A stretch of DNA of 64,000 nucleotides, taken from Gallionella sp. (GTDB lineage Bacteria; Pseudomonadota; Gammaproteobacteria; Burkholderiales; Gallionellaceae). A program made the position numbers and the translations under genes. The stretch lies in contig JAUXOL010000016.1 in NCBI GenBank assembly GCA_030682375.1, positions 268,577-332,576 of the forward strand. Reading direction: 5' to 3'. The notes beneath the pieces are model-generated. The model was given only the letters and a program-made list of their open reading frames with translations. It did no database searches and was not told the DNA's origin. Shown in pieces: positions 8,184-37,108 of the stretch; position 1 is the first letter of the stretch; each line of letters opens with the position of its first letter.

Positions 8184-8187
8184 GTGA
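8047..8187 (+). CDS. Possible 46-codon leader ORF coupled to the ATPase gene
   Basis: An ATG at 8047 opens a 46-codon frame (MRFANAKGRVLRLDNIEEKL...). Its TGA at 8185-8187 overlaps the GTG start of the next gene in the sequence GTGA, the arrangement used for translational coupling. The product is basic (many Arg and Lys) and matches no family I know. It could be a real short gene, the remnant of a longer upstream gene cut by insertion, or chance. Confidence 0.25.
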   Translation: MRFANAKGRVLRLDNIEEKLTTKQLDRRAYRRGRDCSIELKVRGTT

Positions 8188-10808
8188 GTAATCAAAATAA
8201 AACTACAGAACAACCAACTCTGCCCGCAACACTGGACGACTTTGAAGCTTGGCTTGCGGAGCGTCACAAATGGCTTCAGACCGCCGCAGCTAGACTACTT
8301 TCTGCCGGAATACCCTCTGATGATGAAATTTCTGCTTTAGCGGATTTATGCATTGCTGAATCAACTAAAAACCCAAAAGCAAAGTTTGAGTCAATCCCTA
8401 TAGGGGCCTTCTCGCAATCGACTCCAGGGAAGCCATTAAGAATTGAGAAACTTAACAAAGTCTGTGGTGTAAATGCCATCAAGGACAACGCATCATTAGA
8501 CTTTGGAAGTTCGAATATCTCAGTGATATATGGCACAAATGGCGCTGGTAAGTCTGGCTTTGCGAGACTGTTAAAACATGCTTGTGGAGCTAGACATAAG
8601 TCGGACTTGCATCCCAATGTCTTTGCAGACAAGCCCTCTCTTCCATCTGCCGAGTTTGTTATTTCGAAAGACGGTCAACAGTTACCTTTGCCGTGGAGTT
8701 TAGGCCAAGGGCCTCTAAGCGAGTTGCGACATGTACATATTTTTGACACTTTCACAGCCAATGGTTATGTGAATGGGAAAAACGAATGCACTTATGAACC
8801 TCGTAAATTACGCTTTATCTCGGCACTAATTTCTGTGTGCGACAGGGTGTCGCAGAAGCTTTCCGAAAAAGCGCACGCGCTTGTTAAGGCACTTCCGGCA
8901 ATGCCTACGGAGTTCGCCGGGACTGAGGGAATGGTGTTTTATTCCAAGTTATCCAAGTCAACGACCGAATCGGCCATTTCTTCTGCATGTATTTTAAGTG
9001 ATGATGAAACAAAAGATCGGCTAACTCTGGAAACGACACTCAAGCAAACTGATGTACAGCAGCGGCTCAAGGAATTAGCGGAGGAGCAGAAAAGGGTTGT
9101 CCAGCTTCGACAAGAGATGGACTCTCTTTTCAGCGGACTGTCAGATACAAAATTGACAGCAGTGATTGCAGCGAGGCTAGACGCAGAAGCCAAGCGAAAA
9201 GCCGCAAATGAGGATGCTGCCAAGGTATTTTCTGGTGCACCTCTTAATGGGGTTGGGCAAGAGTCTTGGCGTTTACTGTGGGGACAGGCTCGAGCCTATT
9301 CGGAATCCCTTGCATATCCACAGCAAGCGTTTCCCATTGTGGGAGATGATGCCAAGTGTGTCTTATGTCAGCAATCGCTAGATTCAGATGCAAAAGCAAG
9401 GCTGTTGAGTTTTGAGAATTTTGTTATACAAGGTTTAGAAGCGTCGGCTAGAGAGGCCGAACAGTTGCTAGCCAAGATTCTCTCTAACCTTCCCCGCATT
9501 CCGTCCCAGGAGGATTGGAATCTTAAGGCTGGCTTGCTTAAACTTGATGACAAAATGCGAGACCAATTATTTGGTGAACTACATTCCCGACATAAAGCGT
9601 TTAACGAGGCAAGAGACATGAGCAATGTCGCCTCGCTAAATGTGACACTTGTCAATACTGCATTAAAAACATGGGATGAGAAACTGGCCCAAGAGACAAA
9701 AGGGCTGCAAGAATTACAGACAGCCGGAAAACGTGATGAGCTTGAGAAGCGATTAAAAGCCCTTCGTGCTAAAGAGTGGTTATCTCAACAGCAGGTGGCA
9801 ATCCGTGCCGAAATAGCTCGACTCGTGGAAGTTGCAAAGCTAGAGTCTGCCGTGGCAATGGCAGCCACACGTACCTTGACTGCCAAGAAAAATGACCTTG
9901 CCTTGGTCGAGCTATCCAGTGGTTATAAAACTCGATTTGAGGAAGAACTAAAGAAGCTTGGCGGAATACGCATACCAGTCGAACCTGTGCCGCAAAAAGA
10001 AGGAAAAGGGAAGATAACCTTTGAGTTGCAACTGAAAGATTCAAAACGTAAAACACCAACAAATGTTATTTTGAGCGAAGGCGAAAATAGGATTGTCGCA
10101 TTGGCGGCCTTCCTCGCTGACATGACGGCAGTTGAGCTTCCAACCCCCTTTGTATTTGACGACCCAATTTCTTCTTTAGACCAAGATTTTGAGGAACGAG
10201 TTGTCGATCGTTTGGTAGAGCTGGCGTCTTCTCGTCAAGTAATTGTATTCACTCACAGGCTATCTCTGGTAACGCTACTTGAAGAAGCTGTTGCTCATTT
10301 GAAGAATAATGCAGAAGCAGCCAAAATCTCACCAAAAGTATCTATAAATATTAATGCTATTAGGTCGATGGGCGCATTGAAAGGTCTATCAACTAATGCA
10401 GGAATGCAGGGGAAAGCAAAAAAAGGGCTGGCCATTATTCAAAACAACGAAATTGGCCCTTTACGCAGATTATTCAACGAAGGCAATGCTGATTTTGACG
10501 GGAAAGCAAAACAGCTATGTAGTGAATTCCGCATTCTTATTGAGCATACTGTAGAACAAGTCCTATTAGGTGAGGTCGTGAAGCGATTTAGGCGATCTGT
10601 TCAAACAATGGGGCGTATTTCTGCACTTGCAAAAATCACCCCAAAGGACTGTGAATTTATCGATGGGCTGATGACAAAGTATTCATGTTTTGAGCACTCC
10701 CAGCCTATTGATATAACAGTTAACTTACCCACACCAGATGAGTTGGAAGCTGATGTTAAATCTGTAACAGATTGGATAGCCGAGTTTGAAAAAAGACCAG
10801 TCACCTAG
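8184..10808 (+). CDS. RloC/PrrC-like AAA ATPase, candidate anticodon nuclease
   Basis: This 874-residue protein has an SMC/Rad50-like ATPase split by coiled coil. Walker A is GTNGAGKS (117-124), the ABC signature LSEGE lies at 630-634, Walker B is FVFDDPISSLDQ (656-667) and the switch His is 691. Coiled coils (about 275-350 and 500-575) flank a CVLC pair (C392, C395) that resembles the zinc hook of RloC. The C-terminal part has R783-x3-E787 and H838, reminiscent of the Arg-Glu-His nuclease site of PrrC and RloC, although the spacing to His is longer than I recall for PrrC. Such proteins cleave tRNA when phage damage is sensed. A GTG start follows AGAGGA. The gene is clearly AT-richer than its neighbours, which suggests transfer. 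Nuclease activity is inferred. Confidence 0.75.
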   Translation: MSNQNKTTEQPTLPATLDDFEAWLAERHKWLQTAAARLLSAGIPSDDEISALADLCIAESTKNPKAKFESIPIGAFSQSTPGKPLRIEKLNKVCGVNAIKDNASLDFGSSNISVIYGTNGAGKSGFARLLKHACGARHKSDLHPNVFADKPSLPSAEFVISKDGQQLPLPWSLGQGPLSELRHVHIFDTFTANGYVNGKNECTYEPRKLRFISALISVCDRVSQKLSEKAHALVKALPAMPTEFAGTEGMVFYSKLSKSTTESAISSACILSDDETKDRLTLETTLKQTDVQQRLKELAEEQKRVVQLRQEMDSLFSGLSDTKLTAVIAARLDAEAKRKAANEDAAKVFSGAPLNGVGQESWRLLWGQARAYSESLAYPQQAFPIVGDDAKCVLCQQSLDSDAKARLLSFENFVIQGLEASAREAEQLLAKILSNLPRIPSQEDWNLKAGLLKLDDKMRDQLFGELHSRHKAFNEARDMSNVASLNVTLVNTALKTWDEKLAQETKGLQELQTAGKRDELEKRLKALRAKEWLSQQQVAIRAEIARLVEVAKLESAVAMAATRTLTAKKNDLALVELSSGYKTRFEEELKKLGGIRIPVEPVPQKEGKGKITFELQLKDSKRKTPTNVILSEGENRIVALAAFLADMTAVELPTPFVFDDPISSLDQDFEERVVDRLVELASSRQVIVFTHRLSLVTLLEEAVAHLKNNAEAAKISPKVSININAIRSMGALKGLSTNAGMQGKAKKGLAIIQNNEIGPLRRLFNEGNADFDGKAKQLCSEFRILIEHTVEQVLLGEVVKRFRRSVQTMGRISALAKITPKDCEFIDGLMTKYSCFEHSQPIDITVNLPTPDELEADVKSVTDWIAEFEKRPVT

Positions 10809-10861: not shown

Positions 10862-10890
10862 AAAAAAGGCGACCATCGGTCGCCTTTTTA
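10862..10890. terminator. Bidirectional rho-independent terminator
   Basis: A 12-bp perfect inverted repeat (10863-10874 with 10878-10889, AAAAAGGCGACC and its complement) with a 3-base loop ends in T runs on both strands. It lies 54 bases after the ATPase stop codon and faces the convergent purL gene. Confidence 0.85.
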
Positions 10891-10920: not shown

Positions 10921-11040
10921 GAAAAACGTAGCGAGGATGACCGTATGCAAGGCGCACGGAGCGCAGAAACCGGAACGTACACAAGGTACGTGAGGATTTC
11001 GAGCACCGCGCAACGCCGCAGACGGTCACCGCAGTAGTTT

Positions 11041-11042
<2 letters not shown>
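10921..11042. repeat. Hairpin repeat family, copy 1
   Basis: A roughly 122-bp imperfect hairpin. Outer arms AAAAACGTAGCG (10922-10933) and CGCAGTAGTTTTT (11030-11042); variable arm GATGACCGT (10936-10944) pairs with ACGGTCACC (11022-11030). The cores are TGCAAGGCGC (10946-10955) and GCAACGCCGCA (11010-11020), and the apical stem is ACGTAC/GTACGT (10975-10991). It lies between convergent genes and its right end overlaps the purL stop codon. Copies 2 and 3 are at 19561 and 36843. Confidence 0.75.
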
Positions 11043-14922
<3,880 letters not shown>

Positions 14923-19560: not shown

Positions 19561-19821
19561 GGACACCTTGAGAAACCGTAGCGAGCGGTTCGAGTGCAAG
19601 GCGCACGGAGCTTTGCATGGCCAATCGATTAAGCTGGCAAACAACGCCAGCCAAGTCGCTGGTCAGCGCAGAAACCGGAATGTACTTACAGTCTGCCGCT
19701 ACGCGGCCCCGGATTTCGAAAACGAAGTTTCGGTGTAGGCTCATGCGCAAAGCGCGTGATGCCGGAACCAGTACCGCGCAACGCCGCAATCGAGCCGCGC
19801 AGTAGGTTTATCGAGGTGTCC
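19561..19821. repeat. Hairpin repeat family, copy 2
   Basis: A 261-bp element closed by 17-base arms (19561-19577 and 19805-19821, 15 of 17 complementary). Inside, variable arm GCGGTTCGA (19585-19593) pairs with TCGAGCCGC (19790-19798). The cores TGCAAGGCGC (19595-19604) and GCAACGCCGCA (19778-19788) follow. The middle is longer than in copy 1 and contains further small hairpins. It lies between the convergent genes amiC and cysM and ends exactly one base before the cysM stop codon. Confidence 0.75.
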
Positions 19822-33589: not shown

Positions 33590-33738
33590 CGGCATGGATG
33601 CCTCTCAAAATCCAGATTTCATCCCAACTGCTGCGTTGCGTAAAAAATTTCTTGCTTACATATCATCCATATGCGGCGCGGCGAAATTTTTCCCGCGCCT
33701 TGCATTTGGGCGAACTCTGAATTTTTAGAAGCACCCAT

Positions 33739-34722: not shown

Positions 34723-34896
34723 ACTGCTCGAAATCCTCGTCTGCCCGCTGTGCAAGTCGCCGCTGGTCTACCGCAAGGCCGAACAGGAACTGGTCTGCAA
34801 GGCGGATCGTCTGGCCTATCGCATAGCCGACGGCATCCCTGTGATGCTGGCCGACGAGGCGCGCAAGCTCACCGCAGAAGAAGTCGACGCGCTCAG

Positions 34897-36842: not shown

Positions 36843-37108
36843 GAGCCTATTTCAGTAGGTTTCATACCTCGCGTTGACGCTGGGCACGGATGGATGCAAG
36901 GCGCAGCCCTTGACGATGGTCATTCCATCGTCAAGGGCTGCAACACCGCAGGCGCCGTGCCCAGCGCCAACCCGGAGGGCCGCTTGCCTGCGGGCGCATT
37001 GCGGCGTTGCGGCCTGTTGGTGGAGAATGACTCCACTGCACAGCCCGCGCCTTGCACTGCATCCCGCAGGCAAACGGCGCGGGGTATGAAACCTACTGAA
37101 ATAGGCTC
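36843..37108. repeat. Hairpin repeat family, copy 3 (double element in a 26-bp inverted repeat)
   Basis: The 266-bp element is closed by a perfect 26-bp inverted repeat (36843-36868 and 37083-37108). Inside are two hairpins. The left one pairs 36873-36889 with 36955-36971 (16 of 17) and has cores TGCAAGGCGC (36895) and GCAACACCGCA (36940-36950). Its perfect 17-bp apical stem spans 36903-36919/36925-36941 with loop TCATT. The right one, on the minus strand, pairs 36980-36994 with 37063-37077 (14 of 15) and holds cores at 37000-37010 and 37047-37056. Its apical stem GTGGAG/CTCCAC has the same TCATT loop on that strand. It fills the gap between convergent genes. Confidence 0.8.

Follow-up and report, generated by a model that had tools for sequence, protein, structure and literature searches.

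What is a hairpin whose core recurs from place to place while its arms change together? The question is raised by positions 10,921 to 11,042 of a 64,000-nt stretch of a Gallionella sp. contig, and the whole of this stretch is called the window here. The first-pass annotation, made from the letters of the window, described such hairpins at three loci (10921, 19561 and 36843, the last with two units), and all of them are present at these places. Every copy folds into a single long, imperfect hairpin, whose arms covary and whose core recurs, and the ends around this core vary by lineage. We consider it highly probable that the copies form a family of miniature transposons (MITEs) of about 120–146 bp, which transposases supplied in trans would move to gene ends, where the hairpin would act in the 3' UTR.

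Two covariance models were used in the searches: R1, built from copies of the host genome, and R2, a broad model from other organisms whose alignment includes enterobacterial copies. Copy W1 (10921..11042, plus strand) is a complete element whose right end is flush with the stop codon of purL (TTA at 11041–11043), and it scores 129.9 bits with R2, a model not built from W1. Copy W2 (19561..19821, plus strand; ends GGACACCTTGAGAAACC / GGACACCTCGATAAACC; 57.7 bits with R2) is an element with extra nested hairpin modules, and its right end directly abuts the stop codon of a PALP-family gene. Locus 3 (36843..37108) is a composite of two units in opposite orientation, framed by one pair of 31-nt ends that start with GAGCCTATTTCAGTAGG; the host genome yielded no further complete copy of it. 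Its first unit (36863..36981, plus strand), in which the core is replaced by another hairpin, reaches 21.8 bits with R1 (E 2.9e-5 over 4.5 kb) and is weak with a broad profile, 107 of 1000 null sequences scoring as high, while the second (36972..37085, minus strand) reaches 39 bits (E 1.7e-10 over 4.5 kb) with none of 1000 nulls as high. A diverged copy absent from the earlier annotation, W4 (33596..33736, minus strand; ends GGGTGCTTCTAAAAAT / GGATGCCTCTCAAAAT; 29.4 bits with R1; 2 of 1000 nulls as high), follows the stop codon of an ExbD-family gene at a distance of 6 nt. The R2 scan of the window matched W1 and W2 only, and neither locus 3 unit nor W4; because these were matched by the host-built R1, we regard them as diverged members, whose membership rests on R1 and on profile alignment with structure-preserving nulls. 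A sequence-only match of GAGGATTTCGAGCAG at 34723–34754 was rejected as a coincidence; it lies over the beginning of an open frame (34714), the product of which was read by eye as Trm112-like.

The flanking motifs reported for these units, with one base changed in one of them, were recovered as described: GCAACGCCGCA is exact at 11010, 19778 and 37000 (minus strand) and one base off at 36940, and TGCAAGGCGC is exact at 10946, 19595, 36895 and 37047 (minus strand), and also at 33695 (minus strand). When one mismatch is permitted, GCAACGCCGCA has 13 matches in the window against 4.9 expected, a number reached by none of 100 shuffles, whereas the 19 matches of TGCAAGGCGC are by themselves not unusual (reached by 7 of 100 shuffles). 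This ordinary frequency of TGCAAGGCGC, as well as the failure of R2 at locus 3 and W4, would fit unrelated palindromes that share short motifs by chance; the score of W1 with a model from other organisms and the alignments across phyla speak against such a coincidence, whose probability we consider practically negligible, and for W1 and W2 it was rejected on the covariation and the R2 scores. The folds are more stable than those of dinucleotide shuffles, with z of −4.4 (locus 1, RNA), −6.8 (locus 2, RNA) and −16.0 (locus 3, DNA).

The host copies share a layout that runs from an A-tract through CGTAGCGAG, a variable arm, TGCAAGGCGCACGGAGC and GCAGAAACCGGAATGTAC to the loop, and from there through GTACATGAGGATTTCGAGC, ACCGCGCAACGCCGCA, the complementary arm and CGCAGTAG to a T-tract. 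Several copies, including W2, carry extra hairpin modules in their loops. Such nested modules were seen at recurring loop positions in 19561–19821 (W2), L083 and L012–L019, and one of them is apparently common to W2 of the host and Candidatus Ferrigenium (L083). The adjoining arms had been said to differ completely between units; in the alignment as we read it, there are instead three host arm types, with compensated variants within each.

Compensated double changes occur at 13 of 41 predicted pairs in eight simple host copies, and two larger alignments were examined for the same property. Alignment A3 (108 matches) was gathered with a 19-base core pattern: 100 of the 117 stretches listed with the pattern were given to the model, 99 of which matched, and the 17 left out comprised 14 with the motif at the edge of the locus and three (L136, L145 and L156) judged incomplete by eye. 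Alignment A4 (100 matches) was found by the model, from 94 of 97 loci given. In A3, 90.9% of the cells pair against 72.5% after shuffling, and double-changed cells number 779 against 227, no slid version coming close; A4 gives 879 double-changed cells against 242. The covariation of the arms thus holds against both controls. The further statement that structure and not sequence is maintained was borne out in its first half, since the pairing covaries, while unpaired core bases are conserved too, in A3 to a large part through the search pattern, which makes its core identity partly a matter of construction. In A4, whose copies were found by the model, TGAGGATTYCGAGC occurs in 6 of 12 host copies, 2 of 28 from relatives, 21 of 30 from Pseudogulbenkiania, 13 of 22 from Chlorobium and 1 of 8 from Yersinia, so that the core is recurrent, not invariant.

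Covariation alone is no proof of selection on RNA, because the same pattern could arise by mutation, with no selection on structure, if imperfect palindromes are corrected from a template as they are replicated. That the arms covary over their full length, lineage-specific ends included, agrees with such correction, and so does the disagreement among the tests of GU against AC pairs. In helical columns chosen by Watson-Crick pairing alone, GU exceeds AC on the plus strand (54:23 in A3 and 54:33 in A4, both of which were fitted to RNA models), and model-fitted counts also favour GU on that strand, while a strand-neutral alignment of whole hairpins, with fixed internal loops counted, had the opposite outcome (AC 171, GU 93). 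Of 100 copies, 68 have the better fold on the plus strand; for W1 it is the minus strand (−51.5 vs −48.5). The internal loops, however, keep recurring unpaired bases and have not been corrected to perfect palindromes, and helical columns carry an excess of GU on one strand; we regard templated correction as an unlikely source of the pairing.

Further copies with compensated arms were found when the covariance search proposed in the first-pass annotation was run on the host and related genomes. The host genome (2.78 Mb in 22 contigs) has 26 pieces that match locus 1 by BLAST and 19 matches to R1, W1 among them, and R1 at E ≤ 0.01 finds matches in 31 of 41 genomes, with a maximum of 70 copies per genome. 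This maximum belongs to a genome of the same genus (G015; 2.3 Mb), against 0–26 in the other genomes of the genus searched, and perhaps reflects a recent burst. R2 at E ≤ 1e-4 matches 59 of the 143 genomes sampled from the class. Of 200 genomes sampled from the phylum it matches 57, and 38 of those belong to other classes; copy numbers in these two surveys are lower bounds, few candidates having been scored per genome. The core pattern occurs in at least 117 stretches of named genomes, and the matches listed include Chlorobiaceae, Thiobacillus, Sideroxydans, Ferrigenium, Curvibacter, Paucibacter, Methylovulum, Chitinimonas, Pseudogulbenkiania, Yersinia, Serratia, Pectobacterium, Aeromonas and a Troglogloeales MAG. 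At the permissive level of E ≤ 1, R2 gives 120 matches in Pseudogulbenkiania ferrooxidans, 73 in Chlorobium ferrooxidans, 12 in Yersinia proxima, three in a Kluyvera and two in a Pectobacterium.

The ends of the copies carry signs of mobility. Terminal inverted repeats, in which 12–16 of 16 terminal bases match, were found in 76 rows; the boundaries had been chosen jointly with the duplication, and a few of these rows are spurious. The test for target duplications was applied to copies both ends of which fit an end pattern, 50 of the 198 examined. Copies with GARCC-type ends (GARCCTRTYC) have a 3-bp TNA duplication (TTA, TCA, TAA or TGA) in 18 of 26 cases, against a mean of 4.8 and a maximum of 10 in 1000 shuffles, and those with GGG-type ends (GGGCACCTCTA) have a 4-bp duplication (ATAA and others) in 16 of 21, against a mean of 3.2 and a maximum of 9 in 1000 shuffles, a few loci of the latter set coming from near-identical MAGs. 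Three of the 50 copies have CAGGCTG-type ends, two of them with CTAG, and are too few to judge. AGGCTGTTGAAAAA was considered as an end type of the host and set aside; it is carried by one host copy only, which means that ends vary within one genome.

Empty sites were found in genomes of the same genus. At the 3' end of purL (17 loci displayed, 16 of them from relatives), W1 is missing in congeners, and in L290, L292, L297, L299 and L302, which have no element, a terminator of the GGCGACC... type is close to the purL stop codon; the conserved counterpart in the window, at 10862..10889, has been parted from purL by the insertion of W1. W2 is missing in L270 and L271 (among 19 loci displayed), where, as read by eye, the amidase and PALP genes abut end to end. 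In enterobacteria, one E. coli strain has yheT next to yheS, and in Salmonella a copy stands at the stop codon of yheS, but this is not a clean empty-site pair, as two more annotated genes also intervene there. By their inverted ends, target duplications and empty sites in congeners, the copies are MITEs, namely mini-transposons without genes, and the two end types with differing duplication length suggest that one folded core travels on at least two transposition systems. The earlier reading as a structured RNA or a DNA hairpin recognised by a protein was right about the fold and missed these traits of a mobile element. No parent or autonomous insertion sequence with the same ends was found by searching exact ends in the few genomes and loci examined. 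In Chlorobium ferrooxidans, three loci (L317–L319) have a common GGGCACCTCTAT end, with the interior replaced by other, partly repeated sequence.

The placement of the copies relative to genes bears on their effect. W1 lies between the convergent AAA-family gene and purL, W2 between the convergent amidase and PALP-family enzyme genes, and locus 3 between a convergent HbpS-like gene and GGDEF gene, and at all three the stop codon of the right-hand gene touches the element. A count of gene orientation by the longest open reading frame was set aside as unreliable in GC-rich DNA. When 60 copies from three genomes were surveyed with a codon model, the flanking genes were convergent at 7 of 20 copies in the host, 4 of 20 in Pseudogulbenkiania and 5 of 20 in Chlorobium, and divergent at 0, 3 and 2, respectively; the model missed the gene at 8184–10808, so that W1 was misfiled as tandem, and one Chlorobium copy was left unclassed. 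Among all gaps of the surveyed loci, element sites included, 12 of 64, 7 of 43 and 8 of 45 are convergent, and convergence is thus not clearly in excess.

Stop codons were counted in the 193 copies that have sufficient flank. The right end has an open stretch of 100 codons or more ending within about 12 nt in 88 copies and the left end in 42 (p 6.7e-5); in 20 copies both ends have one. The right-to-left ratio is 21:4 in Chlorobi, 11:3 in enterobacteria and 10:2 in the host, where the bias is strong, 17:12 in Pseudogulbenkiania and 20:14 in the others, where it is weak, and 9:7 in the other copies of the host's own genus, where it is absent. At 150 codons or more, the counts are 76:40 of 188 (own genus 5:7). 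The bias is weaker in a 30-nt window (p 0.041, 0.13 and 0.082), and at 40–100 nt, for stretches of at least 150 codons, it is reversed (14 right vs 32 left of 188). These counts indicate that copies favour gene ends and that the plus strand tends not to stand flush after a stop codon, an orientation bias suggestive of an RNA effect that is specific to the strand.

RNA from this family is on record, as the catalogued Xanthomonas sRNA sX9 matches it. The Rfam model of sX9 (RF02228), which is 76 nt long and classed as an sRNA gene, matches the left half of the element on the minus strand, above the 44-bit gathering cut-off in L101, L088 and L144, which are three of the 16 loci scanned, and below it in 11 further loci (7 of the same 16, plus 4 of 5 in another set), where the matches came from a permissive Rfam search. 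These matches suggest that what is annotated as an sRNA makes up half of a mobile element. Several sX9 genes are upregulated under copper in X. campestris, according to a passage in PMC10924375. Both lines of RNA evidence, sX9 and the stop codons at right ends, concern the minus strand, while the GU and AC tests described above disagree on the strand.

The family might also be taken for one of structured RNA genes or 3'-UTR regulators, such as bidirectional terminators or mRNA stabilisers, that are kept by host selection and are mobile only incidentally. The convergent genes at the three reported loci, the A-tract and T-tract that flank a strong hairpin, and the Rfam sRNA within part of the family would all suit this explanation. 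Congeners nevertheless do without W1 and W2 at the same places, purL has its own terminator where the element is absent, copy number ranges from 0 to 70 within the genus, and convergent sites are not clearly in excess among the 60 copies in three genomes; we hold a host-selected RNA with incidental mobility to be quite improbable.

The mobile family that we prefer would work as follows. DDE transposases would act in trans on each end type, and the core would have been exchanged between end types. The inserted hairpin would join the 3' UTR of the abutting gene, where it may act on RNA termination or stability in a strand-dependent manner, and copies in one orientation beside the stop codon would be lost by selection. 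The 3'-UTR effect is proposed by analogy to ERIC in Yersinia, for which passages of two papers report an orientation-dependent destabilisation of the upstream transcript by RNase E (PMC2229807, PMC10969869).

The hairpins had been described as belonging to no named family. This applies to the window, in which Rfam gives no match at gathering level, while a part of the family has a name in sX9, and two other repeats, ERIC and a 152-bp repeat of E. coli and Salmonella, resemble kin; the hairpin family probably links repeat families that have been named separately. The 152-bp repeat, probably the one called RSA, is a clear family member. It has the same core, scores 91–100 bits with R2 in the three copies scored, and carries a 3-bp TTA duplication in L021 and L170; none of 1000 structure-preserving nulls scored as high as either of two copies. 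It differs in having its arms and the GCAAGGCG/CAACGC module replaced and in having its own ends, GAGCCTATCCC. A Salmonella copy finds matches in 5375 of 5426 E. coli genomes, at a median of five places.

For ERIC (also IRU or RU-1), the likeness lies in the tip GGAG-GTACATAAGTAC-GTGA and in GCAAGGCG/CAACGC, which occur in the same order in several copies. R2 gives six Salmonella ERIC copies 33.3, 21.1, 20.0, 19.5, 17.9 and 13.3 bits, with position and strand correct in all six; E ranges from 0.28 to 8.5e-7, and two other stretches (15.7 and 14.3 bits) outscore the weakest copy. A sequence-only model matches ERIC weakly, with a best E of 0.0073. An nhmmer test scored only one of the six real copies and was set aside for profile alignment with structure-preserving nulls, in which each hairpin keeps its pairing and the profile contains no enterobacterial copies; nulls as high or higher numbered 1, 8, 20, 357, 0 and 0 of 1000, so that the support from sequence is strong for two of six copies and absent for one. 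ERIC differs in its ends, its loop lengths and its middle stem. The printed consensus has TATA.. at both start and end, and a review gives the termini as TA (PMC2229807); the present elements do not show TATA-type ends with a TA target, their ends and duplications being different. We think it fairly probable that ERIC shares ancestry with these elements and is a distant member. One ERIC copy (L206:986–1109) matches Rfam STnc70 and V_AS5 below the cut-off, and both of these sRNA families may be ERIC-related.

The REP/RAYT palindromes of GTAG type are likewise palindromic and extragenic, and contact with stop codons is reported for them in PMC3733652, the abstract of which gives a length of 20–40 bp. 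The present elements, of about 120–146 bp with target duplications and with GTAG in some lineages only, do not fit a GTAG-tagged hairpin of that length. We found no paper linking these families by title or abstract, which is weak evidence of novelty as most subscription journals were outside the search, and a search for the core letters in print matched only papers with unrelated titles and abstracts.

A more far-reaching reading, which we put forward as possible rather than probable, is that a single folded core is itself the successful replicator, which the ends of several transposon types, unrelated to each other, have taken up and which has spread over at least Pseudomonadota and Chlorobi. 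ERIC, the 152-bp repeat, sX9 and the hairpins of the window would then be one superfamily, and the recurring loops of the core would be bound by some factor with affinity for RNA or DNA, conserved in many lineages, that either promotes spreading or lowers the cost of insertions at stop codons. For the movement of ERIC-like repeats, a passage of a 2007 review states that there was as yet no experimental support for a transposase (PMC2229807). A core that crosses phyla with different ends provides a comparative handle on how such repeats move: the end type would predict the transposase, and the core would predict a common binding factor. As a minor observation on database entries, L022 (ON470592.1), deposited as a partial E. 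coli phage genome, contains bacterial rpsP, rimM, trmD and ffh with an element between, so that this stretch of it is probably host DNA.
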